NCBI GenBank assembly: GCA_034670405.1
Contig: JAXDDX010000015.1
Location: 310,001 to 374,000 of the forward strand
DNA length: 64,000 nt
Source of the DNA: Hoplostethus atlanticus
Lineage: Eukaryota; Chordata; Actinopteri; Trachichthyiformes; Trachichthyidae
Reading direction: 5' to 3'
Below, piece by piece: positions 26,440 through 60,309 of this stretch. Each line of letters opens with the position of its first letter. The stretch's first letter is position 1. Below the pieces are notes generated by a model, which ran no database searches, was not told the origin of the DNA, and saw only the letters and a list, made by a program, of their open reading frames with translations. Made by a program: the position numbers and the translations under genes.

Positions 26440-27767
26440 CTGCCATTGTGTTGCTCCCCTTCATTGCCTCTGGTCTCCTGGTTTAATTCACATGCATCAG
26501 ACTCCATTTTAGGCACCATATTCACAAGAGAGTTACTTTTTGTGTAGTCTTTGTACAGATAGAAACCTTTCTTAATGGAAGATATTGACTACACAGACCC
26601 ACGAAGATGAAACATCTCCCTAATATAACAGCAGCAAAAAAGAAGGTATATGTCAGTATAATGTCAAACAAATGAGCCTCCGAAATTTTAGTAGGTAATT
26701 TTCCTGTAGGTATGAATACTTCCACTTCCGAAGTTACAAATGTTTTCATTTCACGTTGAAAAGTACACCAGTTGTTCCTTTGGATGTAGCAGCCTATGTT
26801 TTAGCCACTTGGGTCATTTCTTTGTGTTCATCTATGCAGAATAAACAGGGATTTCATAAAAGTTGACATGTTTATCATGCAGCATTTTAATATGCTGTTT
26901 TGGGGAAATATTCCAGACATTGAGAACCTTGGAGAGCAACAAGACTGTCAAGGGACAGGTATACACATCACACATCACACAACACACAAAGCTTTTCTTT
27001 TCAGGAGCAATCGGGAGGAATCCAGGAACTAAGGAAACAACATTTTTTGTAGTTGTACTCGTGACTAATAATTCTTAGTAATAGTTTTAAGTGACTGATA
27101 TTGTGATTTAGATAACATGTAAAAATGATTTACTTGTAGTTTTTTTCATCTCTCGCTTGTCACGTCTTTCAATCAATACACAGGATAAAATGTTACTATC
27201 ACTCATAGAAGCCCAATTCAGATGTTATAAGAATGATACAAAAAACACCAAATGAACATCATAGCAGACATCAGGCTACAACGTCATGAATGTACAGTCA
27301 TTTGGCGCCATTTGGCGCCAACTACTTACTCTAGCTAATAGCACTACGCGGCATGGAGGTTATCAAGCGGGCACCTTCCTTCACCGATGTTATGTTGAGT
27401 TGGGCCCACGACACCTCAAGGAGGCTCAACGGTGTATTCCAGCATCCTGGAACCACCATCCTCTATACCACCACCTCTCATCAGACTCAGTCCAACTTAA
27501 ACTTGCTATCTACATAGCATTAACCTAACCTTGACCGAACATCAATATAACAATACAACCTGCCTGTACAATACAACAACACAACTACATTGCCAGAATA
27601 GTGAAAGAGTTAGTGTGTGTGTGTGGCGGGAGGGGGGAGGAATATGAACTCTGTTTAGGGTAAGGGACGCGGGTCGGTCTTCCCAGGGTACAGTAAGCTC
27701 AATAAAAGAAACGGTTTTCCGCAACAGCAGGTTCGGTGCTTTTCTCTCTCAAGTACGGAGCCCCGGA
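26438..27767. other. Gene-free left flank of the composite transposon
   Basis: No gene was recognised. A tandem ttggcgccatttggcgccaa lies near 27300, with two TTGGCGCCA palindromes. The last 40 bases show weak similarity to the right flank beyond the TIR, so the true element end may lie slightly further out. Confidence 0.4.
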
Positions 27768-27793
27768 GGGGACATAGCAGAAAAAAATATATA

Positions 27794-27880
27794 TAACGAG
27801 GGCACGTTGTAATAAAAAGTGGGAACGAGATACAAATCGCTCGCACGTTTAAATTATTTCGTTCCCACGTTTTTATTAAC
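27794..27880 (+). repeat. Subterminal ~22-bp repeats, left arm
   Basis: About four imperfect units of roughly 22 bases share a CACGTT / CCCACG core with AT-rich spacers. They sit just inside the transposon's outer end. Such arrays are often transposase binding sites; that role is inferred. Confidence 0.55.
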
Positions 27881-27956
27881 AGGAGATGGATTAAGAGGAG
27901 GCTAAGTGTACAGAGGTCTGTCAGAGCATGAAGTGCACTGCACCTGCTTGAAGTTT

Positions 27957-27962
27957 CGGTAA
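27957..27962 (+). other. Splice donor of a leader exon in the left TIR
   Basis: The sequence cg/gtaagt is a near-consensus 5' splice site. A matching acceptor, ttgcag, lies at 29150-29155, just before the transposase start codon at 29202. This suggests a non-coding leader exon in the TIR spliced to the transposase gene. Confidence 0.5.
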
Positions 27963-29201
27963 GTTAAGTTGATTATTAGCTTGCAAGGCAACATTAGTTA
28001 GAGTAATTATATTAATTAAATACATAATTAAAATGTAAATCATCCTGGAAAGAGAAAACCAGGTATTGCAGACACTAACGTCAATCAAGGCGTGTGTGTC
28101 TGTCGGTGTGCATGTCAAAGGGACAGGTAATAGCCTAGTGCTAACGTTAGTAAAGTTAACTGTGTGCTGACAAGCTATAGAGTCAGAAAGTTACAAATGG
28201 GATTCAAATGTATCCGACGATCATTTTGTATGCGGGAGACCAAGCTACCTGCATTTAACTGCAACACTAGTTTTGGCTAAGTTAAGCATCTTTCGAGAAC
28301 GACTTGGCTAACCTAAACGTTAGCCAGTGTTTGCTTACTGATGGGTCGTGGCTACATTTTACAAAGGCTTTTTGCCAGATTATGTAAATTACTTTACCCA
28401 GCAGGGAGTTGAAGATAGCTAAAATGACTCACTGTTAGCTGTGCTATTAGCTGCCTACATAGCCAACTTGCTAAGTTTTAACATGCTTTAACATGCTAAT
28501 ACCGGTAGCAGCTAGGCTCAGCTCATGGTGTCAACACAATTATTTGGCCATTTACTGATACTGGATGCAGTGAAATAACTGAAAATTAAGTGTTTGTAAT
28601 AGATGTACAATGTTACTCAGGGTATTTCATCATGTTATCATTACAGACATATTGGTAGGCTAACAGGTGATTGTAAATGCATTATTTTTAGATTCCAACC
28701 ATGGCCAATATCATGAGCTGCTTTCAGTCATATTTAATAAATATTAGACTAACGTTAGTCTATTTGTAGTAGGCCTAGGCTACTCTCATCATGCATTTCC
28801 TACCAACTTTGCGCAATGCCATCACCTAATATTTGATTACAATTACTTGTCATTTGCCTACCAAAATGGCTGCGATGAATATGTAATTGCATAACCTACT
28901 ATGAATATGCATTCGCAAATGTTTCACCTGATGAACAGCAGCCAGCAACTTAACATCTCCCCCCTCCCTCTGGCTCCGGATGAATTTTCTTTATATAAAG
29001 ATCCATTCTTAGTTATGGCATGGGGCCATCTTGTGGGTTGATATAAATAAGTACACTTTTCATTTAGAAATTCGTTCATATGGTCAAATGAATTGAATTG
29101 AGGTTTAATTGCCAACCTAACCTAACTTCTACTTGTCGTTTTTGCGGCATTGCAGGATTTCGGATCACTGGACCTGATGGGAAACAACCAGCATCTTCGT
29201 C

Positions 29202-30490
29202 ATGGATCGAGATAATCTTATTTTATTTTATTTCAATTTGGGTTTGAATCATCAAGACATACTTGCAAGCATAGCGTTACATGGTTTTATTTTAAGCAAG
29301 AGACATCTAAAAAGACTTCTCAAAACTCTTGGATGTTTTCGTCGCCAATATTCTGAGCTACAGGAAGCAATAGACTTCATTGCGAATCAATTAAGAGGGC
29401 CTGGGAGACTTCATGATTACAGGTGGATGTATGTAAAGTGTCTGGAACATGGCATTCAAGTTAGAAAAGAGGACGTGCGATTGATTCTGGCAGAGCTTGA
29501 CCCTGTGAGTTGTATTGCCCGTCGGAGAAGGCGACTGAACAGGAGGCAGTATTTTTCCCAAGGACCAAACTATATTTGGCATATAGACTCTTATGATAAA
29601 CTGAAACCTTATGGTATTTGTATTAATGGATGCATTGATGGGTTTTCTAGGAGAATTATCTGGTTGAGAGTGGCCCTAACAAGCAGTGATCCACATGTAA
29701 TTGGAGGCTACTTTACAGAATCTATGGAAAATGTTGGGGGTTGCCCAAGGATTGCCCGCACAGACTTGGGTACAGAGAATGTGGTTGTTAGGGATATCCA
29801 AACATTTCTGCGTCGCAATTGTGAGGACAACAGACCAGGGGAGCGAAGCTATATTGCAGGAGCAAGCACAGCTAATCAAAGGATTGAAAGTTGATGGGGT
29901 GTCATGTGAAGAGAAGGTGTTGAGTATTGGATACAGCTACTGGGAGAGCTCAAAGATGAAGGCTTGTTCGCTGGAGATTTCCTGGACAAAGCACTTTCGC
30001 AATTTTGTTTCATGAACATCATTCAGGTACAGTATGTTGCATAATAGTTGTGAACATGGTGGACGAGTCATAAATGGGGCAATGCATTTGCAAGAAATCA
30101 CATTTGCATCCAATATGTTTACAAGTAAGCTAATGTTTGACTTGTCTCTCTTTTCAGGAGCAGTTAAATGAGATCAAAGAAGTCTGGAACGCACATCGCA
30201 TCCGCCCTTCTAAGAACACTAATGTGCCCTGTGGAATACCCAATGTAATGTTTTTAGCACCTCATTTGTGGGGTGCGGAAGACCACATTGTCCGACCCAA
30301 CGACAATGACATGATGACATGCAAGCAGGCCTGCAAGTTCCTGAATACCATCCCATGTGATGCAGACGTTTTTGATCTATGCACAGTTACCATGGAAGAA
30401 TCAGGTTTAGAGTTTCCAAACAGTAGATCAGAAGCACTTAACTTATACATCTCATTAAGGGATATTCTACGTCCCCTATTGTTAGAGTAG
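29202..30490 (+). pseudogene. DDE/integrase-core transposase of the composite transposon, two exons
   Basis: This gene should encode the enzyme that cuts and joins the transposon. Exon 1 starts at the ATG at 29202 (MDRDNLILFYFNLGLNHQD). It has a helix-turn-helix-like N-terminus, an IS3-like segment (residues about 63-100, HDYRWMYVKCLEHGIQVRKE) and an rve-type core. Visible acidic residues are D129 (WHIDSYDK), D188 (RTDLGTEN) and E229 (NQRIE), a D-D-40-E spacing. The open frame ends at residue 230. Recognisable family sequence continues past it to a GT-AG intron (30027-30157, donor cag/gtacag, acceptor ttttcag). Exon 2 (30158-30490, EQLNEIKEVWNAHR to DILRPLLLE) ends at a stop at 30488. At least two disruptions lie near the end of exon 1, so this copy is probably inactive. 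An acceptor at 29155 points to a spliced leader from the TIR. Confidence 0.75.
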
Positions 30491-30555
30491 CGCCTCTCTG
30501 CCCAACCCCCCCAAGGAACAGACGCCTCTCTCCCCAACAGGAATGGCAAGTTCCA

Positions 30556-30835
30556 GCAGCCTCTCCATTGCTCCACCAGCCTCGCCATCGCTTCACCAGC
30601 CTCTCCATTGCTCCACCAGCCTCTCCATCCAAAATGGTGAGGACTACATCTTTTTGTTGAGTTTACACCACACATGCACGCACAGTGCTTCTACAAATAT
30701 CATCTCTTTCTCTGTTATCATCCAGGAAGCCAGGAAGATGGCACTGCCACCAACCCTGTGACTCTGGCCCTACCTGCCTTGCCCAGCCTATGGCCTCTGC
30801 AGCCTCTCCATCACTCCACCAGCCTCGCCATCGCC
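30556..30835 (+). repeat. Short minisatellite (cctctccattgctccaccag type)
   Basis: About four ~20-24-base units (cagcctctccattgctccac and cagcctcgccatcg variants) run from 30556 to 30630. Two more lie near 30798-30835 after a short gap. It lies just downstream of the transposase stop and is probably in its 3' untranslated region. Confidence 0.55.
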
Positions 30836-32663
30836 TACTTAACCTATTGCACTAGAGTTTATTAATCTTTCTTTGCTTTCTTACTGTTGGCATTTTTCTC
30901 ATATAGAAGCAATGTGCATCTCAATCAATGATAGTGTCAATATCTTAACATACATTGAGTTAACATTTATGTCTATCCGGCAGCATATTTGTATTTAAAT
31001 TCATTACAGCTAAAGCTTCTTTCTACAAAAAAAGACATGGGCATTGGGCCTCAATTGATCTTTTTGCTGTTCACTGTGCAACCTATAAAAATGACAGCAA
31101 TCCATCAGTTTCTCATAACTTTCAAATGCTCTTGTGGTGAATCATTTCTATACTATAGATTAGGTATTTATTCAATGTCTTTATGTCCATTTTTAGCATA
31201 TTCAAATCCATTAATAAACATATAACACTGCTGTTAAATCTTGGTAGATGTCACCTTAGTGGTACAGCATTTCCCATGTATTGTCAGTGGCTTCACTGAG
31301 GTACATCTACAATAAAATGTGGTAATTCTTTTGTTAAAGTTTTGGTTTTATTCATATTTATGTTTGCTAGGATCTGGGCTGCACATCCCAAGTGTTATTG
31401 TTGTCATACAAAAACTGATCATCTGCCAAAAGCTGCTTTTATCTGGGTCACACAGTAATAAAGTGCAAATACACATAACTTTATGTCCGTGGCAATGGCA
31501 AAGGCATGTTTTGTGAAACCTTATATGTGTTTTGTCTAATATCCTTGTTTACGCCTATAGCCTATTTGGAAACTATGGCCTACTGTATGATTTATTGATG
31601 GGTGATATATAAAATAAAGAGATTATCTTTTTTGCAAATATTATGATCATGCGTAATTTTACCTGCTCCGTCCCCTAGATTATAACCAATCCAGTACTTT
31701 TTACCAGTTCAAATTTATTTTAAGCGGATGGTCATCAGTTTTTCATGAGAGAGAGAGGAGTGCAGTGCACCGCTACAAGTGAGTGTACACAGAATTTATA
31801 TGTGCAATAACTTGCTGGTACCTGACTTTTCCTACATTTTCATTTAAAATAGTTTTTATATAAATTACACAAAAGGCAAATAAAATATAAGTTACTGCTG
31901 ACCTTGCAATGAAGCAGTGAAGGAGTATTTGATGTCAATGTAACATCATATTGAATGATTTAAAAACACACAGACAAAACGGAGAGCTTTTTATCAATTT
32001 TAATTGACCAGGCCTAACTTAGGCATACTTTAATGTCAGCCATGATACAACAGGCACTGGCATTAACTGGAGTAACAGACTTCTTTATATCTTTTCTGCA
32101 ATTCAAATATTACACAAAAAAGAGCAAATTCACATTCAGGCTGAATATTCTCTTCATAATTTTATTTAGGTTAGCAATAACCTACCCCCCAAGCCAATTA
32201 TTCTTTTTACCCGTACCTGCCATCCAAATTTGAAAGCATTTCCTCCAAAACCCCTTTTAATTTTTCACCTTTCACGTCTCAATAACTTTTCCCCAAATTA
32301 AAGATAAACTTAATATGCTAATCCCTAACTATGAGCAATAAATGGGTAACTGGCTCAGCTTATACCGAGCTTTTTATCAACAATAAAACATTTATTTTTA
32401 AACATGTGGAACTCCTATTGTAAACATGTCAAATGTCAAAAAAGCTGGTTGCAATAAAACCCTTTTGCTTAGGACCTAAATACCACTTTTAAGAGACTTC
32501 TGTTGGAACTAAAACATACTTCTCAAAATTGCATAATTGAAACAGTTATGGTTTCCAAAGAGCTATCTAGTAGCCGTTTTGTGCTTATTGAACATTCCAC
32601 AAATTTCGAAACCATAACAGCAGTAGAAATTGTGGGTGTTATCGGTGCTCTCAGCCTTCTGGC
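30836..32663. other. Spacer between the convergent transposon genes
   Basis: AT-rich DNA inside the composite transposon, between the ends of the transposase and HECT genes. AATAAA motifs occur on the plus strand near 31312 and 31610, and on the minus strand near 32393. These could serve as polyadenylation signals for the two genes. No third gene was seen. Confidence 0.5.
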
Positions 32664-33694
32664 CTAGATGATATCCATCACCCATACAGAGCTGGTGAGT
32701 ATACTATTGAACTCACTGCGGAGTTCTGGATAATTGTGGTACCCTACAGGTAGCTTTAAAACGCAGCCACGTGTGTGATTGTGGTCTTTGCTCGAAGTCC
32801 GAGGTTTCGATGATCTGTATCGTAATTGGTTTTTCAATCAAATTGGAACCAGTGCAGAAGCGGAGGAAAAGCTGAAGGGTGCACAGATCAACTTCACCTA
32901 CATATCTCTTCAGGTGCCGGGCAACTGCTGTCTGTGGTCGAGTCATATCTTCTGGGAACCGCAGAAGCTCCTTCACAGCTTTTCCAGTAGGTGTTTTCTG
33001 ATGTATGACACGATGCAGAGCATCTGGTGGCAACACACTTGCTAAGTGCACCAAAATGGGACGCCAACACTCTATGACATACATTGGTGCCTGTATGAGA
33101 GCCTTGTGTCCCATCTGTGACAGCAGTGGGATCAGATTGTCCTTGGTAGGAACTTGCTGGCACTCGTGTGCTTCAAGGGCATCGAACAGTGCATCGCTGT
33201 CAACAGAGTTGAAGTCCTCCAAAGCCTTCAGAAGAACCTCTCTCTCATGATCAGACACATACTGCAAGAAGGTGTCCTTTAAGCTGCTGGTGGTTCTGGC
33301 GTACAGTGCCTCTTCAAGAAACGGTGCTGCCAGTTTCACTGGGAAATAGCGGGCAGTCCTCCACCCTACTATTAAGATTCTGGCAATTGCCTGCCACTCT
33401 TCAGACTGATAATCATGCCTAATAAAGGGAACTTTCACGCCCCCTCCCAAGGTGCACCTTTCATAGAAGTCTGTCCAAAACTCTGTTAGGCAGTCTCGTG
33501 TCACACCACTTCCCTCCCCTTCCTCAAGTTTTCCATTGGGTAGACGCATCTTAATAAACACCTCAGTGTTTAAAATGTCTGGGTTTGTGAAGGCTTTGAT
33601 TAGGTCAATGAGACAATGCCCCCTTCTAATAATCAGTTTTACAGGAGCACCATCAGGTTCACCCAGTGTGTGGTCATTCAATGGCTCTGTAACA

Positions 33695-34170
33695 GGGTCA
33701 GGTTGCTGTTCGCTTGGTCTCTGTGGTGGCTGGTCATTCCAAGGAGCAGGCTGAGGTTCAACTAATCCATGTGGTGGCTGGCCATTCCAAGGAGCAGGCT
33801 GAGGTTCAACTAATCCATGTGCTGGCTGGCTATTCCAAGGGTCAGGTTGTGGTTCACCCAATCTCTGTGGTGGCTGGTCAGTCCAAGGAAGAAGTTGCTG
33901 TTCACCTGGTCTCTGTGGTGGCTGGCCATTCCAAGGAGCAGGTTGAGCTTCACCCAATCCATGTGGTGGCTGGCCATTCCAAGGAGCAGGTTGAGCTTCA
34001 CCCAATCCATGTGGTGGCTGGCCATTCCAAGGAGCAGGTTGAGCTTCACCCAATCCATGTGGTGGCTGGCCATTCCAAGGAGCAGGTTGAGGTTCACCCA
34101 ATCCATGTGCTGGCTGGCCATTCCCAGGAGCAAGTTGCTGTTCGCCTGTTCTCTGTGGTGGCTGGTCATC
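33695..34170 (-). repeat. 48-bp coding minisatellite in the HECT gene (10 units)
   Basis: Ten units of 48 bases each encode a 16-residue repeat close to NGQPPHGLGEAQPAPW. All stay in frame. Three central units are almost identical, which points to recent unequal exchange or slippage. Outer units carry variants such as QPPQRPGEQQ. The Pro/Gln/Trp-rich sequence suggests a flexible, possibly binding, linker between the N-terminal domains and the HECT-like region. Confidence 0.9.
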
Positions 34171-34641
34171 CCATGGCACTGTGTCATCTAACTGCACATC
34201 TTCATTTGCCACAGCGCCAATTGTTATCTCGTGGTCGGTGTCTTGTTGAACAGTGACATAGATCGTTTGTACCTTATCTGAAAAAGGTGGATCATTTCCT
34301 GTGAGATCTACAACTGGGGTTAAGGCTAACTGCATCCCAAGTTCGCCTTCCTCTGATGACAGCTCCTCCTCTCTCATTTTGGTACAAAGATACAGTCTGA
34401 GGATTTTCTTTCTTTCTGCATACAACTGTTCCACAGTGCTCAAACTGTTGACCTGTACCTGAGAAGACTCAATTTCAGTTTCTTCTTTTTCTTTGAAAAA
34501 CCGTTTGGGAAAAACCGTTTTTCAGCCATTTCTTTGATGTCCACTACTGTTGTATCCTTGTCGATGGTTAGGTGTCTCGTTCCTCCACCATTGATTGCCT
34601 TCACTTGTTTGTACCGTTTGTCATTTTCATCAAAGTCCATC

Positions 34642-35288
34642 TGTGGCAAGGTGCCACATTACCGGGGTCCGTGACAGACAGAGACATAGGCAGGGGAGAG
34701 TTAAATGGCCAGCACGGCCGTTTTATTCACCACAATAAACCCGACCCGATGTTGACGGCAGTGAAGAGCGCCGTCCTCCTCAGTGCGCACACCTCCTCCC
34801 TCCCGGCAGGTCAGCCGCAGAGCACCAAGGCTGCCCCAGTCCGCCAGGCTTCCAGGGGCATCCCGCCCCAACCCCGACTGGTCAGCCCTTGCAGGCTGCC
34901 CCCGACTGCAACCTCCGGAGCTCGGCCGGTCGCCACCGGCTTTGGACGCCCGCTCTCCCACTCCGTCGTTCGCCGCTCGCGCCCTCGCCTCCGTCCCGGC
35001 ACTCCAGCCGCGGACCCCGCTCAGACGCTGCTGCTGCTGGCTCGTCTCTCCCCAGACAGTCCGGCTCGACTCCTCCGTCTCCTGCCGACTTTCAATCATA
35101 CTGCCAGCCTCTCACACTGGCGCGCTCTCACCCTGTCCCACATCCACACATAGGTTAAAAAGGCCCCGGCTGCAATCAGGCTTAATTGGCCGCAGCCGGT
35201 CCCGGATCCAGAGTAGAGTCAGTCCACCGACTCAACTCTCCCCTGGATCCAAGCTAAGCCTCACCCCACCCTCCTCCAATCTGCCACA
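34642..35288. mobile_element. Probable solo LTR (fossil LTR retrotransposon)
   Basis: A GC-rich 647-base block starts TGTGGCA and ends TGCCACA, a perfect 7-base inverted end with the TG...CA rule of LTRs. It is flanked by the 5-base direct repeat CCATC (34637-34641 and 35289-35293). An AATAAA lies at 34734 on the plus strand. It interrupts the coding exon of the HECT gene, so it inserted after the transposon. No internal retroviral genes are present, so it is only a recombined LTR remnant. The family is not assigned; a Gypsy-type origin is possible. The long open frames across it are by-products of its GC content. Confidence 0.65.
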
Positions 35289-36054
35289 CCATCCATCCAA
35301 GCTCAACCCGTCTATTTATTTTTTTAGCACTTGTATTTCCTTCCCATTGCTTCATTTTTGCGGGTGCCGTTACCTCATCAGACTGCAATCTCTGTCGCAG
35401 CCTTGTGAGTATAGACGCTTTCCTGCTGTTTGAGTCAAGCGATGCGTTGGCTTGCCGGCAGAAGGCCACAGTAGCTATTCTATCTCCAGCTTTAGGGATA
35501 TACTTTGCTAGGTCACCGTCCATCATTACAGGGATTACAGATCCATCAATCTGGAAAAAAAAAAAAAAAATTAGCATGATTAGATTGTACTATTAGCGTG
35601 CCTATATATACATAGTAAAATTATTAATTATTTGACACTAAAATCTACATTAAGCAACATTTGTTTACATTCACTGTCTTGCTTTCAATCTTAGGCCATT
35701 CACCCGAATCATGCCTTCGTTTTAGCCTAAATTTAGACTTTGATGACTCTGGTTAAGTCATAAGGTTCCCAATTCATGATAACATTTGAGTGTTGAAATC
35801 ATTTTAAATTGACCTTATCAAGCCACGTCAAGCCCTTTTTTGGGTTGATTTTCGATTATTAACTATAATTGCAAGCAATCATAAAGGGGTCCAAGCACCC
35901 CCACATAATTTCGGACCCAAAGCTACGGGGCGCCCCACCTTGTTGCCACTTGTACTGTGATGCTGCACATATTGTGATGTTAGATAGCCACTGTGTGGTC
36001 AACTTCAGTATTAGCATTTATTTATAGCCATTGTATATTACAGCTCCTTTTGCA

Positions 36055-36785
36055 TAGTGGTGGAATGTAAATAAGTACTTTTACTCAAGTACTGTACAAA
36101 TTTGAGGTACTTCTACTTGAGTATTTCCAGTATTTTCTGCAGCTTTATACTTCTATCTCAGAGGCAAATATTGTACTTTTTACTCCACTACATTTGTCTG
36201 ACAGCTTTAGTTACTTTTCAGATTACAAATTTTCATACCATCCCTGTTCAGTGAAAACCAGGTATCTCCAAATGTGTTGATTCTGAATGTTTGTGATGAA
36301 CTGAAGGATTAAGTGTTCCTTTATGGTTTGAGAAAATTCTCCTACTTCTTAAAATAAATAAACTTCTTAAAACCCTCTTGGATTAGCTGCATTGTCACAA
36401 AGCTGAAAAAGGGCTGTTTTTCTGAGCTCATGAAAAGTTGACTTTTTACAGATATGTTGTTCTCACAGGACAGCGACACTACAAACACTATGATGATCTT
36501 ATAGAATATGATGCATTGCTGTAGATTAAACTAGCCAACAGTATATGAAGTAGTTAAAATAAAATGAGCTCAACCTTAAACATCTACAGCAGTAAAATGC
36601 AACATACAAATGAATGCAGTAGTAGCCTATTATTATCCAAATATAATATAATCCGATATATATATCTCCGAATATAATTGTCTAGTAAAACACTGACTGG
36701 CACCTTTTTTACTGCACACAGAGAGAGTATTTTTACTTTAAGTATATTTTGCTGATAATACTTACATAAAAAATAATATTAATTA
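36055..36785. repeat. Common teleost dispersed repeat (tactcaagtac type)
   Basis: This AT-rich block begins tggtggaatgtaaataagtac with TACTCAAGTACTGTAC-like motifs. It passes through ttttactccactacattt and ends with ctttaagtatattttgctgataatactt. I recognise this pattern as a very abundant interspersed repeat of spiny-rayed fishes, though not its exact class. It lies between the first and second coding exons of the HECT gene, inside the composite transposon. Confidence 0.55.
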
Positions 36786-37214
36786 ATGGCAATCAGCATA
36801 ACAATGAAGGAGTACACTTCTATCAAAGTATTAATAACACAAAAAGGTGACTGATACATATGTACAGTGCCTTACCTTTTCATCTTCCAGCTTCTGGATA
36901 AATTCCTCAGCAATTTTCCGCTTACGTAAGAAACCCCTCGGCTCAGCATCCATTGTTTTAACTGTCTGCTGTGGGAAGGGGATTAAACAAACTATGAATT
37001 CCAAACATACATAACTTTTACGATAGCAGAGAGCTGTTCATTTAGTATGGGGTGATTAACAAAATGACTATGGCTGATCTTAATGTATAGAAAATTCAAA
37101 TGAATGCATATTCATAGTAGGCTATGCAATTACATAATCATCGCAGTAATTGTAATCAAATATTAGGTGATGGCATTGTGCAAAGTTGGTAGGAAATGCA
37201 TGATGAGAGTGACT

Positions 37215-39386
37215 AAAGAGTGTGACTTTAAGCATGCTAAACTGCTTAAAGAAGTATTCCCTATCTTAGGACCCTCCATTCTCTATATGATCAATCAGTC
37301 GCTCTCCACTGGCACGGTGCCCTCCGCCTTTAAAATGGCCGTGATCAAGCCACTACTGAAAAAAACGAACCTTGACCCCGAAGTACTTCAGAACTATAGA
37401 CCAATCTCAAATCTGCCGTTCCTCTCCAAATTACTTGAACGAACAGTAGCCAGTCAATTTACAGATTTTTTGTCAAAAAATAACCTGCTTGATCCCTTCC
37501 AATCTGGCTTTAGATCCTTTCACTCGACCGAAACTGCACTCACGAGAGTGGTAAATGATCTTTTGTTAGCTATTGACTCCAATTCAACCTCAGCACTATT
37601 GCTACTTGACCTGAGTGCAGCCTTCGACACAATTGATCATGCGATACTCTTGAACCGTCTTGATACCTCTTGATAAGCCTTTTCTTGGTTTAGGTCTTAC
37701 CTACTTGATAGACCACACCACGTCTTTTACAACAACATGACCTCAGAGTGTTGCAATATGGACTTTGGTGTCCCACAAGGCTCTGTTCTAGGACCACTGC
37801 TATTCTCTATCTATATGCTACCACTTGGTGGCATCATTCGCAAATTTGGAATTAACTTCCATTGCTACGCCGATGACACCCAAATTTACATACCAGTCAA
37901 ACCAACCGATGACACCCAATTCCAAAAACTAGAGGCCTGCCTATCAGAGGTCAAATATTGGATGTCCCTAAACTTCCTACTCCTTAATGGCAGCAAAACT
38001 GAGATGCTGATTGTGGGACCGGCTAGACATAGACACTTATTTGAGAATAGTACTCTTAACTTTGATAGTTGTGTAATCTCCCAGAGCCCATACGTTAAAA
38101 ACCTTGGGGTAAAATTCGACCCTACCCTCTCATTCGAGTTGCACATTAAGGAGATCACTAAATCAGCGTTTTATCATCTTCGCAATATTGCCAAAATTCG
38201 ACCTATGCTAACAGAGGCAGACGCAGAAATTTTAGTACATGCCTTTGTATCATCCAGAATCGATTATTGCAATGTCCTTTTCTCGGGCTTACCTACTGGG
38301 CGCACTAAAAAACTACAACTGGTCCAGAATGCTGCTGCCAGAATCCTGACCAAAACTAGGAAATTCGACCATATAACTCCCATCCTGTCCTCATTACACT
38401 GGCTACCAATTCAGGCCAGGTGTGACTTTAAGGTGCTTTTACTTACATATAAATCATTACATGGGATGGCACCGTCCTATTTATCCGATTTGATTAAACC
38501 TTATAAACCGCCACGCGCCCTCAGATCTCAGGACGCTGGCTACCTGTCTATCCCAGCAATCAAAAAGAAAACTGCAGGTAACAGAGCCTTTTCTTACCGG
38601 GCTCCCTATCTATGGAACAGTCTGCCTGCCTCAATCAGAGAGGCAGGCTCTATCGAAGTCTTTAAGTCAAGGCTAAAAACCCATTTATTCTCTCTGTCAT
38701 TTGACCGGCCTTGAGGGAGTGGCTCAGTCTCTTCTCAGAGTAAGGCTAGACCAGTTAGCTCATCCTAGATCAGGGTCCTGCCGATGGATACTAGCATCCT
38801 GCCTACATGTCCTATTCTCCTGGTCTACCTGCTCCTGTCCACTGACGCTGGTCATGTTTGTCTGTGTGAGTGAGAGTGTGTGTCTGGGTGTGTGTGGGTG
38901 AGTCTCCTATCTGTTCCAGGCCGCAGCCCGGCAGAGTTGGCGTCTGGTTGGTCCCCCCTCCTAGGACGATGCTGACTGAGCAGACGTTGCGTTCTCCTAT
39001 CTGGGCAGTGTTGGTGCCTGCATGGTCCCCTAGTCCTATGATGACGCTGACTGAGTTGCCGTTGCTGTGATGCCACCCCATCAGATCTGGATGTCCCACC
39101 AAAATAAACTTTCATATATTGTGTATACGCTGCTTGCCCAAACTCGGCATCTATTGCACGCCCAACCGTCCTGGTAGGGGGATCCCTCTCTGAGTAGCCC
39201 CTCCCAAGGTTTCTCCCAATTTTCCCAGTGAGGGTTTGTGGGAGTTTTTCCTTGTCCTCTGTGAGGGTCTAAGGCTGGGGGATGTCGTGTACTAACCATT
39301 TATTATTTTCACATGTTGGGCACTGTGAAGCCCTTAGAGACTGTAACGGTGATTAAGGGCTATACAAATAAATGTGATTTGATTTT
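37215..39386 (+). mobile_element. L2-like LINE, 5'-truncated, inserted in the right TIR
   Basis: Non-LTR retrotransposon with a reverse transcriptase. Frames 37167-37673 and 37737-38714 carry [62 protein letters not shown] and the catalytic CYADDTQIY (near 37865). No endonuclease is present, so it is 5'-truncated. A small deletion near 37665 breaks the frame relative to the copy at 16.9-19.0 kb. The 3' UTR (38715 onward) ends in short ttgatttt-type repeats typical of L2/CR1-like elements. It is flanked by TGAGAGT on both sides (7-base target duplication), and the left TIR shows the empty site. It inserted after the composite transposon. Confidence 0.88.
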
Positions 39387-40227
39387 GATTTGAGAGTAGC
39401 CTAGGCCTACTACAAATAGGCTAACGTTAGTCTAATATTTATTAAATATGACTGAAAGCAGGTCACATGATATTGGCCATGGTTGGAATCTAAAAATAAT
39501 GCATTTACAATCATCTGTTAGCCTACCAATATGTCTGTAATGATAACATGATGAAATACCCTGAGTGACATTGTATATCTATTACAAACACTTAATGCAC
39601 AGATAAAAGTGTTATTTCACTGCATCCAGTATCAGTAAATGGCCAAATAATTGTGTTGACACCATGAGCTGAGCCTAGCTGCTACCGGTATTAGCATGTT
39701 AAAGCATATTAAAACTTAGCAAGTTGGCTATGTAGGCAGCTAATAGCACAGCTAACAGTGAGTCATTTTAGCTATCTTCAACTCCCTGCTGGGTAAAGTC
39801 ATTTACATAATCTGACAAAAAGCCTTTGTAAGATGTAGCCAAGACCCATCAGTAAGCAAACACTGGCTAACGTTTAGGTTAGCCAAGTCGTTCTCGAAAG
39901 ATGCTTAACTTAGCCAAAACTAGTGTTGCAGTTAAATGCAGGTAGCTTGGTCTCCCGCATACAAAACTATCGTCGGATACATTTGAATCCCATTTGTAAC
40001 TTTCTGACTCTATAGCTTGTCAGCACGCAGTTAACTTTACTAACGTTAGCACTAGGCTATTACCTGTCCCTTTGACATGCACACCGACAGACACACACGC
40101 CTTGATTGACGTTAGTGTCTGCAATACCTGGTTTTCTCTTTCCAGGATGATTTACATTTTAATTATGTATTTAATTAATATAATTACTCTAACTAATGTT
40201 GCCTTGCAAGCTAATAATCAACTTAAC

Positions 40228-40233
40228 TTACCG
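40228..40233 (-). other. Splice donor of a leader exon in the right TIR
   Basis: This is the mirror copy of the left-arm donor, read on the minus strand as CG/GTAAG. A good acceptor (pyrimidine-rich, ending cccacag) lies about 20 bases before the HECT-gene ATG at 36953. This suggests the right arm supplies the HECT gene with the same leader. Confidence 0.5.
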
Positions 40234-40269
40234 AAACTTCAAGCAGGTGCAGTGCATCTCCTGTTAATA

Positions 40270-40375
40270 AAAACGTGGGGACGAAATAATTAAAACGTGG
40301 GAATGAAATAATTTAAACGTGCGAACGATTGAATTTAAACGTGCGAACGATTTAATTAAAACGTGCCCTCGTTAT
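40270..40375 (-). repeat. Subterminal ~22-bp repeats, right arm
   Basis: Five tandem units of 21-23 bases follow the pattern AAACGTGSGRACGA plus an AATT-rich spacer. They are better preserved than the left-arm set and have one more unit. Their mirrored position in both arms supports a role in element ends, such as transposase binding. Function is inferred. Confidence 0.65.
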
Positions 40376-40449
40376 ATATATATTTTTTCTGCTATGTCCC
40401 CACTGGGGGACAAATTGGCTTTGTACTCAAGTACAAAGCCAATTTGTTT

Positions 40450-41130
40450 TTTCTCCCTCTCCCTATGGTCAGCTAAAGAATTCACTTCTAGACATTTTTC
40501 CTCAATTGCTGCCACCAAATATTTCAACACTTGGTTTGGTGGCAAGTGGGAAATACAGCCAACTGAAGTGATCCATGCCCTTATTAGTGCTCCTTTCACC
40601 TGGTCCAGGAAAGACCGAAGCTCAGCCTTTTTTGCCCTCAGAGTCTCTTCTAGCCCAGAGTCCAAGTCCCCCCTGGAAAACAGATCCTTCTCAATGTCTG
40701 TTATCTCCTCCTCCAGCCTATGAATGACAGACATTATCCTCCCCCAACACATTAGCAGAATAGCTATGGCAAAAAAACTTCCTAACTCTTCCCCACCTCC
40801 AACACATTCTCATAGTTACCTTTATTACTCCCCTTCAATTTATCCCTGAACAGCAGTTTATTACAAAAATTCACATCCTGCAATAGCTTAGTGTTGAAGT
40901 GCCAGTAAGACTTTGTTGCGGGAGGGAGGGCTTTGTATGTTGATATCAAACACCACCATGTGGCGATCACCAGGAACCGGACTGGAAAATCAAATTCCCC
41001 AGCACTCTGTTGCACACAGACTTGCTGACAAACAGCCTATGCAGCCTGGCAGCACTGACCCTATACTGTCTACCACCCCTCCATACATCCACATCCACAG
41101 AGAGAGAGAGGAAGAGAGAGAGCATCCAAC
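40450..41130 (-). mobile_element. Tx1/L1-like LINE ORF2 fragment
   Basis: On the minus strand, pieces read RVSAARLHRLFVSKSVCNRVLG, then KSYWHFNTKLLQDVNF, then a coiled stretch (RLEEEITDIEKDLFS). This is the order seen in ORF2 of fish Tx1-like LINEs: end of the endonuclease, then the linker with SYWHFN. The pieces lie in different frames and nothing of the reverse transcriptase remains. It borders the right end of the composite transposon. Confidence 0.65.
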
Positions 41131-41601
41131 CATCCAGCTCTGCAGTGAACAGGCACGACAACCGCTGTTACAGCCATACAGCGCATCACCAAATCAGTAG
41201 CAAGACCGCGTTAAGAAAGATGGTACAGCCCACTTGAGGGGTGTTACAGGCAGGGATATTATGTCAGTTTCTGTCATTTTTATTGTTTTGTTACTTTACT
41301 ATTTACAATCATTTTGTGCTTCTTTTATTTCATTGTAGAGACCCATCTAAAGATCAATTTTTGCTTTTTTTGGGGGGCTCAAGGTTCTTTTAAGGAGACA
41401 ACCCCATAATTCGCACCGTGGTTACTAGTGTGGAAGAAAACTTACTGTACTGTCTGACATGAGTAGATATGTATTAAGAGTAGTAGTAGTTGCAGTACAT
41501 ATATGCCATGCTGTATTTGATTCATGTAAAGTTCCTAAATGAATTAATGCTTGTTTCAAAATGATACCGATGCTTCATGTTAACTAGAGGATGTTCTAAA
41601 G

Positions 41602-41806
41602 CAGGGATGTCAAACCGTGTGCCATGGAGGGCCGAGAGTATGCAGGTTTTCATTCCAACCGAACACTACACCAGGTGATTTCACTGATTAGTCCCTCCTC
41701 TCTGGTTGAAGGTGTGGTAATCAGTGAAATCACCTGCTGTATTCTTGGGTTGGAACGAAAACCTGCATACTCTCGGCCCTCCATGGCACATGGTTTGACA
41801 CCCCTG
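41602..41806. mobile_element. hAT-like palindromic MITE nested in the foldback element
   Basis: The ends are cagggatgtcaaac and gtttgacacccctg, a hAT-type CAGGG terminus. Almost the whole 205 bases fold back: gccatggagggccgagagta on the left pairs with the right half. Flanks are TTCTAAAG (41594-41601) and ACCTAAAG (41807-41814), an 8-base target duplication with two differences. It inserted into the larger foldback element. Confidence 0.75.
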
Positions 41807-41875
41807 ACCTAAAGCCTAGCGCTGTTTGTCTCCCAACACTAATGACCTTGGTACTGAGACCAGAGGTAAACCTAA

Positions 41876-42075
41876 AAAGTCACATGATATGTGGAAATGA
41901 CATGTGGAAAACAACATGTGAGTGTTCCCACATGTGGTTTTTGGACACGTGTTTTAGTTTTTCACATGTGAATAAAGCCAATCACATGTGGAAATGTTAA
42001 ATTCACATGTGACTGACACATATATTTTCACGTGGAAATTTGATTTCACATGTGAGTAAAGCATATCACATATCA
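41876..42075. repeat. CACATGTG-rich repeat, copy 2
   Basis: About eight CACATGTG or near-CACATGTG palindromes occur in 200 bases. The segment gtggaaatgacatgtggaaaacaacatgtgag matches the reverse of 735-780. CACATGTG contains an E-box (CACATG), but repeat origin is the simplest explanation. Confidence 0.6.
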
Positions 42076-42762
42076 TATTACATATCATAGCATATCATAT
42101 TACTTTTTTGTAAGGGTTGTGTAACTTGATAGATCCTGCTCACTCTAGTTTTCTTCCACACTAGTAACCAGGGTGTGAATTATGGGGTTGTCTCCTTAAA
42201 AGAACCTCGAGCCCCCCTAAAAAAGCAAAAATTGATCTTTAGATGGGTCTCTGCAATTAAATAAAAGCACAAAATGATTGTAAATAGTAAAGTAACAAAA
42301 CAATAAAAATAGGAACTAGTGATTAATAATGATCCCTCTCTCCTTCATCTCTCTGTATTCTAGCTCTCTCTACATTTTCTCTCTCCTTCTTATCCTTCAT
42401 ATACTGTGAGGATATTTGGTCATTACTCACTACAATAAACTGTCTCTTCAGGCTCCTGTGGTCCTTTAACATCAGTCCAAGCCGGTGTCATTTGTGCTAT
42501 CATCAGGTCAAACCACTATCCTGTGTGCTTCATCTCTCAGTGAGATATGCTGGTTTAACTTGATGTGTGATTATGGGACCACATAATTGAACCTGAAAGC
42601 TGCAATGGCCCAGTTGTACCGTCACAGGACCGCTGGTGGACTGCTAAAGAATCTATCCGTCTATGAGTAGGTGTTAATAAGTGAGCCACCAGCGGATCTC
42701 TGCACAAAACTGTACACTGCCGCCAGTAGCCCGCTAAAGAATATGAGCGGCCGTCAGTACAT

Positions 42763-42890
42763 TACATTACAGCCATTTGGCAGACGCTTTTATCCAAAGC
42801 GACTTACAATAAGTGCATTCAACATAGGTAGGCAAGAGAACCACTAGTCTAAGTGCATTTCCTTCCTAAACAAGTATTATATTGGTTCTC
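42763..42890 (-). mobile_element. LINE 3' tail fragment
   Basis: The text catttggcagacgcttttatccaaagcgactta is the reverse of the LINE tail found at 4030-4080. The following gtgcattcaacataggtaggca also matches the 3' UTR of that element. It is a short 3' remnant only. Confidence 0.65.
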
Positions 42891-45800
42891 TGTTGAGTAG
42901 TCTCACCCCCCAGAACATCTAGGCACTAGTTCATTGCATAAGTCATTACATGCAAAATGGTTGAACCAGTTGTCATAATGTGTCAAGCATATTTTCTATA
43001 CATTTCTATTAGACTTTTTTTGTAAATGTGTTCTGAATTAATGAATCTTGACTTTCTCAGTTGCTTTGGCTCAATTCTCCAATGACAGTTGAAGTCGTCA
43101 AATCAATGTGAAATTGTTCACAACATTTTCTTACTTGTGCACAACAGAAAGAACATTTATCTTTGTTCCCATTTGCAAATGTTTTAGCACATTTAGGCAA
43201 ATGACTAATTATGACAATTTGAACAATTATTGGTTGTATATGTCTTTTGAAATCGATATATGCCATACAGAAAAAGTGCAGCCTTGTGCATTTTCAATCA
43301 TTGTCATCAAACCCTTCGCCATAGTTTCCATCAGAGTAACTGTTATATTGACAACATGACTAAGCATTTTGACTATCTTGTTTGTACACAATGACACAAG
43401 GACCTGTCATTCTGATGGACTGACATGTTCATTGACATAAAGATTTACTTTTGAGAGATGAACTAAGGATTTTGAGCATGTTATGGGCTTTTGCAGGTAA
43501 TCCATTGTGTGGTGCTGTTTGTACCAATTGTTTCGAGAAATGCGCTTTCTGTTTTGCAAATCTTAAGGATGATTCGAGAAATGTACTAAAGCGACTGAGA
43601 AAAAAACTGTAATAGACATACCAAGGTGCTCCATAATGCGCCGCTGCTGCGTATCATCATCCGTGAGTGTGCGTCACTTTCAGAAGTGGATGAGGAGGTG
43701 CTGGCGGTACTCTGATTTCAAAATACTGGAGACATTATTTACTTCACTAACATAATTTGCCTGTCATCAGATATTCTTATAACGCTTATATTGTTTCATC
43801 GTTGAAAATGCACATACGCTACATGACCGTACTAGCTTTTTAGCCTGCATGTGTTAATTTACACACATACATACATACATTTTTCCACTTAGCCATGCAA
43901 GATTAAGTTAAATCGCGACTATTTTTGTTGATCCAACCGGGTCCATTTGTATTGCATTTGTGTATCTGGGTCTGCTTGAGCTCTACACTAATTTTGGTGT
44001 CCCTAGGTCAAAAATTGGCCAAGCCTATCTGTAACAAAGAGTCGAACTACAATACCCACAATCCTTTACACAGCTGCTTCCAATTTCCACCTGCCTGATT
44101 ACAAGGACACTTCTCATTCACTACTACATTCACTCACCAGTCCACAGCAATGTGTTGCCAACTTGCCTTTGTGGACTTGTGTGCGTCTTAAATAATAAAC
44201 CACACACACACACCCTAACAACTCATGACCCTACTCACCTGTCAAACAAAGAAGTGGAAGAAATGGAGATTTAGTTTGGACATTGCAATTTTATGCGACA
44301 ACCTAACCGTTGTCCCATGGTGGTAAAAGCCAGTAACAAGAACATTGGACTCCTGCCTATCTTTCACTATCCAAAAAAAACATGCAAAAAAGTCTAAAAG
44401 GCAGGAAATCCAATATGGCGGACTTGGGTGGTCCCTTTGGTAAAGTTGTAGAGCACATCTGGCTGCATATGTGCACCAAGTGGCGTGTCAGTCATACTAC
44501 TAGTGTGCAAGTCATGGCTTTTTAAAAAGTCAAAATGTTTTTTAAATAACAGTGCCTACCGTGCATGTGTGTCTTTGTTTGCACCATGTAGCCAATTTTA
44601 AGTGCATAGCTTCGGAAAATCTGTAGCGAGAGCAATTAGTTAGCTTTCTGCTTTCTGTGTGTGTGTGCGCTTGGTCAAAAATAGGAAGAGGTCCCACTGT
44701 GGAAGGCGTGTCACAAGGACAGTGTTTTACAAGGACAGGATCAAGATTGCGGCCTTGAGGCAGATAAAAGAACATGGCCGTTGGCTGCTGCTTACACACA
44801 GACACATACTTGAAGTGAAAAAGAAGAAGAGAGGTACCAGCAGTGTCAACTTGTGGGTATTTTAGACTGCGACACATCTTTTTTCTGTGTGTTGGTCTGT
44901 GTGTGTGTCTGTTGTGCCATAAAAAGTTGTGGTTATCTCTCTTAACATAGCACTGCTATCACCTAACAGATTACCCACATACTGACACAGGTTGCCGTAG
45001 CCTACCACCCCACTACCAACCAGTAAGTAGCCAGTAAATCTTAGTATGAAAAAAATAATAAAAATAAAATTCTCTTCTTTTCTTTAATAGCCAACAAAAG
45101 TTGGGAGTTGCAGGCGTGAACTACACCCACAGTTACTGCAAAACAATACTCACCACATGCTGCAGGGTGACGGACAGGCCAGACTGCAGGCATGCACGAC
45201 CCACTGATAAGCAAAAGGCAATCAGTGTGTGTGTGTGTGTGTGTTTGGGTGTAATGCCTACAGATTGAGTTTCTAAAACAACAGGAATTCAAGTTTATCT
45301 GTCACACAACTTTGCATTATTGCGAAGTGAGGTCACTCATTTCTTCAAGGGGCAGGTTTAGGATTAGGATTTAAAGGGTAATTCCGGTATTTTTAAACCT
45401 GGGCTCTATTTGTACATATTCATCATTTATACCGCAAAATAGGTACAAAAAGTTTTGGAATTGCTTCACTAGATCGCCTCAGCCAGCAGTCGCGATAAGG
45501 GCTGCAATGGCTGCAACGTAATCCGCAGGGGCAAGTACGCGCGATGAAAGTAAGCCAAAACGGCTTAACTAGAAGAGCGTTAACCTGAACGTGCCAAGTT
45601 CCCAGTGAAATCCCGGCGTTTGACAAAGAGCGGCCATACATACTCGCAGAGCATGAGAACCTCATTGATTTTACTCCCGTTGTTGTAAAGAGAGACGTGT
45701 CTTTTGGAACGCACTTTGCCTATTTCAATTTTGGATTTCAGCTCCAGGTCATAACAAGTATTTCAGAGTCCTTTCATACACTAGAGTGAAACCCCTAGAG

Positions 45801-46833
45801 ACAGATGGATCCTGCCTTGAAGAAAGGGTTGACAACTTGACAATAATATGTAGTCACACCTTAAATGTTTATATTTACAGGCATATAGTGGAAGACTGGG
45901 AGGATTACAGTTTCCCTAGACTCTGGCAAACATCTAAAAAATACCATATAAAATACATACAAGCAATAGCATGGTAGTATTACCAAGTTTGTAAAGAGTT
46001 TGCTGGTTCAGGAGGAAGAGGTTAGAAAGTATCCTTTCACAGTAGTTCAAGACTCATAACACTTGAGGGCCTACTGGTGGTGCTACAGTTTAAGCTAGTA
46101 AGTATTTGAGTTTCGCAGTGTTTTAAAATCTATTGTGTATTAATGCTGCATTTTGTTGTTTGTGATTTTCCTCTTGACTTCCTCTAACAGGAAGTTTCCA
46201 CTAGGTGCACTGATTTAGACATAGGCCTTGTTACAACTAACATATTTTCATTACTTATTGGAAGACCTTTGGTTTGAGACACTTCAAAGCCTAAGGTTTT
46301 CAAAGTGTGAGGCCTGACACCTCCCTTTGGGTGGCATCAGAGAGCTTCAGGGGAGGTATGGAGATAGGAAAAGGAAAAAAACTGCAGTGGGTTTTGTGAG
46401 GAATGATGAAGAGGCTCACATTTTTTCTTGAGTTCAAGTAAGGCCCACTCTCTTAAAGGAAAGGTCCAACACGTTAACATTGTTTAAAAACAGTTATTGA
46501 CGATATACCTTGTAGTTCTGGGTGAAGTTTGTTATTTGGCATGTATATTTCATATTCCTGCGATTAATTGGTCAAATGTAGAGGACATGACATGATGTCA
46601 GCGCAGCTACATGGAGTGTAATAGGGGAACATTTTCAACAATTTGAAGTTTTAGTGTTAGTCACACATACTCAAAGAACTCAAAGGGCTTCTTTCTTTCT
46701 TTATAGAACAGCACTTTTATACACTTTTATAATAATTCTAAGCCTCTTTACTATGGTCTCAAGTCATTTTTCCCTTTTTTAAAAATCTAAATCTATTTCA
46801 TAGAATGAGACTCCTATATATGGTGTTGCACAT
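42891..46833. other. Gene-free stretch downstream of mks1
   Basis: No convincing exon was found. The block 45365-45800 (starting taaagggtaattccggta) looks like a fish dispersed repeat. A GT microsatellite sits at 45223-45243. The remainder is unassigned. Confidence 0.45.
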
Positions 46834-49800
46834 CTATGCAGTGGATTCGATTTGGAGTTGTGAGGTGGTGTTGATGAGGTCTCTGGGAAGGCTTTCTCTG
46901 GCCTCTTGCATCCGACTCCTGGCCCTCTGGAACGCCTCTGACAGAGAAAAACAAATATTAACAACACAAAATGATGATCACGATTAGACACTAACTACAA
47001 AGTTAACAGAAATAAAAATTAATAGAAATTATGAGTTTTAATTGCAAACACTCAAATGTATCTCTTTTAGGGAACTCACTATGTTTTCCCCAATTCATAT
47101 ATTTTTTCTTTAAAATAACCGGAAAATCAACTGGCAAGCACAACCCATTTGACTATTAGATTGCAAATCCACTAACACATTGCTCCGGCCTGATTTGAAG
47201 AGCCTACAGGCAATACTAAATAGCTGCAGTCAGAGGGGTTCCCTTTACCCAGGATGTTGCAGACAGCTCCTTGCTGACTGAAGCTTCCGAGCTTGTCAAA
47301 CACACTCTGCCTCCTCTTCTTCAATATGCTAGCGTCAACAAATGCCCTAAAACATATACAAGATGGATGCATTAATCCAAAAACAGAATAAACAAACTAC
47401 AGAAAATGACATTTTTCTTTCCCAAATTCACTGAAAGACCTCTCAATATGAGGACCAACATTTCCAGGCATCTAACATTAAGTTTAAAGTTTATTTTTAA
47501 GATGAAGCAAAAATGTATTTTTTATAGTTGTTTAAGTTACAATGGGATGAGAACGTTTTAAAGAGCAGACCACAAGCCCTAACCCTTCATTAATAGTGTG
47601 TGTATTTTCATGAAAAAAAAGAAAAGATTTCTGATACATATTTCTGTTTATTATTAATACTATTCATTCTGAGTTGAGAGCTTTCTTTCCACTGTGTGTT
47701 TGTTCAAACCTGGTGCTGGAACTAAGTTCCAGAGATCCTGCCCCATCTCCACTCTGCTGGCACAAACAGGCAATATCCAGGACATAAAGAATCTATTTGG
47801 CCCTCCCAAACTTCCAGGGCCAAAGATAAAATTGTATGTTGCTAGACTAGTATAGAAAAAAACTAGAAAAAGTACATAGAGAAAATGTATGGACTAGCTG
47901 CAGCAGAATATGTTTGCTTCAGCTTTGAAATTTGAAAATGCAAAAATATGTAGTTTGTAGAGTAGGCACTGTCTTCAATAAAGTCTTACTTTAAGTGTAA
48001 TATATGTTTAAAAATATAAACATTCAATTATCTTTAACAGAAACTGAGTTAAAAGATTTGGGAAACCACAGTCAGTCATGGTCATTAATGCAGTCCTAGG
48101 GCACATGAATAACAGAAATTTAGTGGTATTTCTCTTTAATGTTGTGTTAACTAGATATGGCGGTATCCTACCCCCTACTTACCTGGCGTGCTGGATACAG
48201 TGCAGGGTAAAGGTGACACTTCCTGTCGTTTCAGTGCGAAAGCCAAAGCGACTCAGCCTCTCTCCCTGCATCCACACAAAAATAGACTTGGTTTAAAAAA
48301 CTGTTCCAAATTATCATTCTTTAATTCACTAATGGTCTGAGAGTAACACATGAGTAACTTTGAATGTACCAATGACATAGGATGATACATTGATATATAT
48401 GGATGATTCTACAGAAACAAATTTGGGGGGTGTAAAAATCTTTAAATTTGTATTCTATTTTCCCTCATTCTAAAGCATATATGTGTTAGTCGAAGTCTAA
48501 GATACACAAATCTACTAAAGGTACAGTCACAAATTTTGAATTTTCCAGAATTTCTCTCCTTTCTCCTGTCACTACCGTAACATAAAGAAAATACTAAATT
48601 AAATTAAATGAGTAAAAATCCTCTTCATTATTACAATGAATTTTGTCATTGTAATGGACATTTTTAAAAATGTATCTAGATTATTTGCAAATTATAGTCA
48701 GTATAGTATAGTGTGTGTGTGTATACATATTTTATTGTCCTCCATGTCTGCCCTGCACCTCCATTCAGAGAGCTGCATAGTCGTGCCATAGAGATGTGAT
48801 CCTACCTTGAAGGTCCCTGGTACCCTGACGTAGCTGTGGTCCTCTAACTCAGGAGAACCTCCAATAAAGAAGCGCCTCAGCACAGATACTGTCCCCGTCT
48901 GGAGGGGTCTCCAAGTATGGCATGTTGTTATGTGTTTACCTGTCACACACACACATACGCATACACAGGATGAAAAGTAAGCACTTTAAGTTATAGTAAT
49001 TGTTAGAGCTGTAAACATATTTGTATGACTTATATACATGCAAGTCAGGTGGATTGAAGACTCTAAATTGCCTGTGAATGTGAGTGTGTTTGTCTGTATC
49101 TGACCCTCAATAGGAATACACAGTTATGGAAAATGGATGTGTAGCTTTGTAGGTGAATTTAAAAATAATATTTGAACATTATCAACATTCAAAATGTCAA
49201 GGTATGCCAATAGCAATACATAGTAATCCAATAGTTTTACAGTATACATGTCATACCAGGTGTGGCAGGAAAAACCAGATAGCCATAGCCTTCAGTTCGA
49301 TAGCGCTGCCAGAAGTCCAGAGAAAGAACCTTGAAGTACAGCACTGGCCACTGGGGAATGGACTCTGTGACCAGAGGGACATGATGTTTTATCCATTTGA
49401 TCTTTGAAATGCTGTAATATATCATTAAAATTACATCCAGCATGTACGAAGAACACCTTAGTATTAAACACAATAGTGCAGAGTGCAAACTAACCCTCGC
49501 TCTCTTTTTCGTTCATGTGGAATGCCTCAAAGCTGAAGGGGTAACTGAAGAAAGCCACGTTGTCCTGTGGGCATAAAACATTCAGGATTTATTACATTTC
49601 ATCACGTATAGACACACTCTGAAAGTTGATTACAACATACCCTGTACATACCCTCTCTAAAGTCTTGGTCCGGCAGGTCTGGGTAACTTCTGAGAGTGAC
49701 TGGAATGGCAAGCTGGACCAATCTAAACAGATACAAATATTAATACAAGTTAAAATGGTAATCCATGAGATTCTTGGTTATTTTGTTGCCATCTTTGGTG

Positions 49801-60234: not shown

Positions 60235-60253
60235 TGTTACAGTGAAGTCAGTG

Positions 60254-60254
<1 letters not shown>

Positions 60255-60307
<53 letters not shown>
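60255..60307. repeat. GT microsatellite after the TRIM-like pseudogene
   Basis: About 26 GT units starting 20 bases beyond the ancestral-looking stop of the TRIM35-like copy. The surviving long frame reads through it as VCVC repeats before stopping. Confidence 0.9.

Positions 60308-60309
<2 letters not shown>

Follow-up and report, generated by a model that had tools for sequence, protein, structure and literature searches.

A stretch of 64,000 nucleotides of the Hoplostethus atlanticus genome (the window; C15:310001-374000, in an assembly of 633 Mb, where C and a number denote a contig of this same genome) carries a DDE transposase gene and a HECT-like gene between two long inverted repeats. 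The locus raises the question of whether both genes belong to one DNA transposon and, if so, whether a ubiquitin ligase is a regular part of such elements or has been picked up by accident.

The element in the window

The element spans 27754-40425 (12,672 bp) and is flanked by a 6-bp duplication, CTCAAG. Copies of the interrupted host repeat on C132 and C274 (two read of 40 genome matches) are uninterrupted at the insertion point. The initial annotation had proposed one DNA transposon at 27768..40401 with inverted repeats of about 1.15 kb; the inverted ends, the duplication and the matching empty site are all present, and the true limits are slightly wider (Table 1). Both ends of the element are TA. 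The left end begins TACGG and the right end, read inward, TACAA, which departs from TAYGG. The inverted arms are approximately 1.16 kb long, with complementarity of 98, 95 and 97% in blocks of 653, 140 and 75 nt (27927-28788 against 39391-40263), and further inverted blocks of 66 and 50 nt pair the left arm with the inner part of the right arm. Arm identity is approximately 97% over aligned columns when gaps are uncounted and the LINE insertion is excluded, and 92% over 1,044 columns in a BLAST alignment with gaps counted. The outer ~170 bases of the arms are more diverged and contain 22-bp tandem repeats.

Table 1. Features of the window element and the delimited related elements. Positions refer to the window or, for relatives, to the contig named; TSD, target-site duplication.
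Feature	Positions	Strand	Basis or remark
Left TSD, CTCAAG	27748-27753	.	Direct reading and empty-site host repeats
Left terminal inverted repeat, starts TACGGAGCCCC	27754-28914	+	Terminus common to C9, C424 and C10 copies
DDE transposase ORF, D129/D188/E229, premature TGA just past E229	29202-29894	+	Pfam rva_4, E 6.4e-17
Transposase 3' part, resembles C-terminal part of relatives	30137-30490	+	tblastn against relatives
HECT-like main exon with insertion, at least two frameshifts and no active-site cysteine	32667-35550	-	Against relatives; exon start predicted
48-bp tandem repeat, 9.4 copies, in HECT-like ORF	33722-34173	-	
~0.65-kb repeat inserted in HECT-like exon	34641-35288	-	Relatives contiguous here; limits by eye
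Probable first exon of HECT-like gene, starts MDAEPRGFL, splice-like GT next	36876-36952	-	Sequence reading; splice predicted
Right terminal inverted repeat, inner part	37102-37210	-	Two inverted blocks against left arm
LINE-containing insertion, 2,180 bp, in right arm	37211-39390	.	RVT_1 matches; duplication TGAGAGT
Right terminal inverted repeat, outer part, ends TTTGTA	39391-40425	-	Inverted-arm alignment
Right TSD, CTCAAG	40426-40431	.	Direct reading and empty site
C378 element, both genes inside, ends TATGG	40247-47323		TSD CCATGT; ends counted by eye from sequence
C249 element, both genes inside, ends TATGG	424736-431492		TSD TGTTCC; ends counted by eye from sequence
C166 element, both genes inside, ends TACGG	930658-938383		TSD CAGCAA; ends counted by eye from sequence
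C200 element, both genes inside, ends TACGG	514837-521113		TSD GCGCTG
Short element beside C166 element	929761-930581		TSD ATTTAG

At 40396-40450 the right terminus closes with 16 bases (TACAAAGCCAATTTGT) that recur, inverted and without mismatch, in the host DNA directly after the duplication. The result is a palindrome around CTCAAG that looks like a template-switch scar. A 126-aa ORF at 40375-40752 was read by eye as a LINE gene and was rejected; it has no Pfam match and is part of the dispersed host repeat, many of whose 40 genome matches cover only the first ~120 bases.

The transposase ORF matches the Pfam integrase core profile rva_4, and the catalytic residues named in the initial annotation were exact, with 40 residues separating the second D from E. 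The ORF stops at a TGA directly after E229, whereas its relatives continue past this position. The HECT-like gene lies on the minus strand, and the pair is therefore convergent, as had been annotated. Its main exon is broken by a 0.65-kb insert, pieces of which occur on C9 and C424 outside element copies, and by frameshifts judged by eye against the relatives; in the C249 relative the same exon is a single open one of 649 aa. An insertion containing a LINE reverse transcriptase, with its own 7-bp duplication, interrupts the right arm. Judged by its sequence, the window copy is dead and neither protein can be made intact any more.

Three further copies of the window's family were found, all partial in the sequence read. 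The C9 copy has the left end and the start of the transposase, and is truncated without a second end or, in the sequence read, a HECT gene. Of the C10 copy there is a terminus together with portions of the transposase 3' exon and of the HECT gene; the C424 copy has a terminus, and its HECT gene lies where the contig ends.

Other genes in the window include a Frizzled receptor in one long open ORF (8529-10307; Pfam Frizzled, 3e-132) and an exon of a PRY-SPRY (B30.2) protein (59192-60340), TRIM-like by eye. LINE reverse transcriptases at 17630-19012 and 37167-38714, the second inside the right arm, read as one family.

Relatives and genome-wide pairing of the two genes

Six relatives were read for both ends, and four of these (on C378, C249, C166 and C200) have TA ends and 6-bp duplications enclosing a transposase and a HECT gene. 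With the window, 6-bp duplications were thus found at five of the seven loci read. The C378 and C249 elements are 98% identical over 6.7 kb and count as one family, so the four delimited relatives represent three families besides the window's. At C144 and C207, no TA-ended pair with a 6-bp duplication was present in the stretches searched; the rva_4 transposases of these two loci form a distant lineage accompanied by a more canonical multi-exon HECT gene, and their transposase exon is open over 288 aa.

Pairing was defined as a HECT locus within 15 kb of a transposase locus in this one genome; chance figures assume uniform placement, and the match counts of genome searches are lower bounds. 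The window transposase ORF gave at least 102 matches at 80 loci and the window HECT sequence at least 34 matches at 27 loci. Nineteen of these 27 have a transposase within 15 kb (0.10 expected), and all 19 pairs are convergent. Among the remaining eight, the C10 and C424 loci adjoin terminal repeats of the window's family, and six (C15:1405371, C237, C436, C49, C60 and C63) have neither a transposase nor a terminal repeat nearby. Searches with Pfam profiles, PF24764 (107 loci, from 150 of the 151 rows counted) and PF00632 (at least 126 matches; 54 loci), produced 17 pairs against 0.27 expected, again all convergent. The 37 unpaired PF00632 loci include C128, which is paired in the window-query search, and the multi-exon matches among them are taken to be ordinary host HECT genes.

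When the window-query, Pfam and further searches of the genome were pooled, the counts came to 148 transposase loci and 81 HECT loci (lower bounds); 35 of the latter had a transposase locus no more than 15 kb away, where 0.57 pairs would be expected in any orientation. All are convergent except one, a HECT fragment on C85. The pair is also present at C144 and C207, where the transposases belong to the same integrase family but differ greatly, and HECT proteins at loci with the same place and orientation are 24-43% identical to the window's. It is highly improbable that one mobile element nested in another, or chance proximity, produced the pair. Nesting of repeats is common here, with two inside the window copy itself, but neither the excess of pairs nor their nearly uniform orientation fits such an origin, and in the window, as in the four delimited relatives, both genes sit inside shared, duplication-flanked ends. 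The initial annotation had allowed that the pairing might be accidental, and by these figures it is not. The recurrence of the same facing pair in some three dozen places suggests that the ligase belongs regularly to the transposon and is not an accidental passenger.

That the two genes always lie together, a point which the initial annotation had asked to be checked, held only in part. As set out above, 34 convergent pairs were seen, with convergent HECT genes at 33 distinct transposase loci, but none was detected at the other 115 of the 148. In 112 of these 115, every single match is shorter than 520 nt; of the 20 transposase loci with a match of at least that length, 17 are paired. The other three (C100, C77 and C5) yielded no convergent HECT gene in the searches, and reading 8 kb at C77 by eye revealed none. 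At C100 the opposite strand has pieces that resemble the HECT gene of C144 in part (E 2e-28 and 1e-13); the C144 parts concerned are HECT by eye, and the one tested has no Pfam match. By eye, C100 may therefore be counted, through its HECT-like pieces, as the eighteenth of the 20.

Many rva_4 loci (C100:1062829, C76, C87, C236, C304 and others) are split at profile position ~105, which suggests a domesticated gene or else a lineage whose DDE core is interrupted by an intron. The five named have no HECT partner in the Pfam-based pairing.

The HECT-type protein and its conservation

The window HECT-like ORF has no Pfam HECT match, and against the PDB its protein has no convincing relative, the best match (E 0.89) being an unrelated enzyme. 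Matches to PF00632 above the curated cut-off of 23.9 bits were obtained for the relatives on C249 (27.8 bits, E 2.6e-6), C200 (29.2 bits, E 9.1e-7) and C166 (25.0 bits, E 1.8e-5), and the C144 exon matches Pfam HECT with an E-value of 4.1e-15. A five-sequence profile weakly matches the C-lobes of HUWE1 and E6AP (E 0.02-0.1) in seven of the nine matches listed (an RNA polymerase subunit accounts for the remaining two), and the His-Thr-Cys motif lines up with that of HUWE1 in the single alignment shown. Twelve alignment rows, from four families, span the active-site motif, and 11 of them read HTC or YTC. The exception is the window, and the C424 and C10 copies of its family likewise have no active-site cysteine in open frame. 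The HECT protein of these elements is predicted to be an active E3 ligase.

The domains originally assigned to this protein fared differently. HECT-like stands, as relatives pass the Pfam cut-off and keep the cysteine. The N-terminal region has a conserved block (39% between C249 and C200), but no SAM or ubiquitin Pfam match and no PDB match was found in the N-terminal blocks, and the SAM-like and ubiquitin-like labels are therefore unsupported.

The HECT gene is under purifying selection between families. Its dN/dS is 0.129, 0.124 and 0.114 for C249 against C2, C120 and C48, and 0.120 for C200 against C1, with bootstrap limits within 0.07-0.22 (237 to 298 of 300 draws kept, saturated ones dropped); C2, C120 and C48 are one family, and the four pairs amount to two independent comparisons. 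For the transposase, C378 against C2 and C120 gave 0.085 and 0.089, which is one independent comparison, and window against C200 was saturated. All these between-family ratios are approximate, since dS is 1.2-2.0, near saturation, and saturated draws were dropped. Within families, dN/dS (HECT 0.88, 0.28, 0.14 and 0.42; transposase 0.58 and 0.65) rests on few changes and is uninformative, and in two pairs (HECT of C2 and C48, transposase of C378 and C249) nonsynonymous changes alone were seen.

The constraint between families argues that the HECT protein is used. It is improbable that the HECT gene was captured, plays no part in transposition and persists by co-inheritance: the transposase may be autonomous, and the 115 of 148 transposase loci where a convergent HECT gene was not detected would fit, but a dN/dS of approximately 0.12, an active site kept in 11 of 12 rows, and the same place and orientation where the HECT proteins are so divergent from the window's all speak against it.

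A swap of HECT genes between element lineages was considered, as the window transposase is nearest those of C200 and C1 (path 0.83) and the window HECT groups with C378 and C166. Grouping the window HECT with C200, C128 and C1 was however not rejected (AU test, p 0.196). Support for the grouping of the transposase is weak (82/92), and its alternative was not rejected either (AU p 0.344). A swap is therefore not claimed.

Proposed role and comparison with known systems

The element is probably a decayed IS3EU-type cut-and-paste transposon whose normal gene set is a convergent DDE transposase and HECT-type E3 ubiquitin ligase, and in our reading the HECT protein is a conserved second gene of these elements. 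The transposase would cut out and insert the element, and the HECT protein, as a second element-encoded enzyme, would transfer ubiquitin to a target and so aid its spread. It might tag a host factor that restrains the element, so that this factor is removed, or it might ubiquitinate the transposase or its DNA complex, leading to regulation or dismantling. Integrase-like complexes need active dismantling, as with Mu and ClpX. Action on the transposase or strand-transfer complex, for turnover or dismantling, rather than on a host factor, is possible but taken singly rather unlikely; this precedent, the convergent pairing and the similar constraint on both genes would suit such a dedicated partner, but the sequence offers nothing that separates it from a host target. 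Countering of host transposon control, by ubiquitination of a silencing or restriction factor, has the same rather low likelihood. The TET/JBP genes of fungal IS3EU elements, which with alpha-kinases are their passengers, are proposed in the main text of PMC12730594 to aid escape from methylation, so that counter-silencing passengers have a precedent in the superfamily. The HECT protein is about as likely to act on a host restraint factor as on the transposase complex.

A DNA transposon bringing a constrained second enzyme is, to our knowledge, unusual. The HECT family is, by the initial annotation, widespread in fish as 'G2/M phase-specific E3 ligase-like' genes. It is proposed tentatively, at somewhat less than even likelihood, that the HECT gene is the standard, mobility-required second gene of animal IS3EU elements, that much of the fish G2/M E3 ligase-like expansion is this same gene, and that the ubiquitin step disables host restraint or dismantles the transposition complex. 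If the ligase were needed for mobility, it would provide a handle on host restraint or on the exploitation of ubiquitin signalling by transposons, and genes annotated as host E3 ligases could be reclassified. An independent hint comes from a copy-number study of a hybrid sculpin, where the unclassified candidate repeat elements include a G2E3 blastx match (PMC5638112).

Compared with HECT E3 ligases (PF00632; HUWE1, E6AP), the proteins are alike in that those of the relatives score above the Pfam cut-off and have the His-Thr-Cys motif in the C-lobe, and they differ in an N-terminal region without a Pfam or PDB profile match, in the location of the gene inside a transposon and, for the window copy, in the lost cysteine position. 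In RAG1/RAG2 (ProtoRAG) the genes are convergent and RAG1 has a RING ligase domain, and some Ginger1 elements carry ubiquitin-system (OTU protease) domains. ProtoRAG, by its abstract (PMC4411706), likewise combines a transposase gene with one for a second protein in a DNA transposon. Its transposase is of the Transib type, and it is not known to carry a HECT gene. Ginger1 has a related integrase-like transposase, but 4-bp duplications are given for it in the main text of PMC10045372.

Neither HECT nor ubiquitin appears in the main text of PMC10045372 or PMC12730594, and a literature search for IS3EU elements with a HECT gene found none described; a note in Repbase may mention one. The element type and its fungal passengers are known, and a HECT gene in IS3EU, which did not turn up in the searches of papers, is apparently new. 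In the main texts of PMC10045372 and PMC12730594, IS3EU elements have TA..TA termini and 6-bp duplications, and the fungal TET+ termini are TAYGG..CCRTA. The classification check proposed for the transposase was run, and the rva_4 integrase core, TA..TA ends and 6-bp duplications fit IS3EU as published. The likeness extends to the TAYGG start at the window's left end, the IS3/IS481-like DDE transposase, and a second gene placed opposite the transposase, which in the fungal TET+ families described in the main text of PMC12730594 is an alpha-kinase. The elements described here differ in that their second gene is a HECT ligase and, in the window's family, in very long terminal inverted repeats of 1.16 kb.
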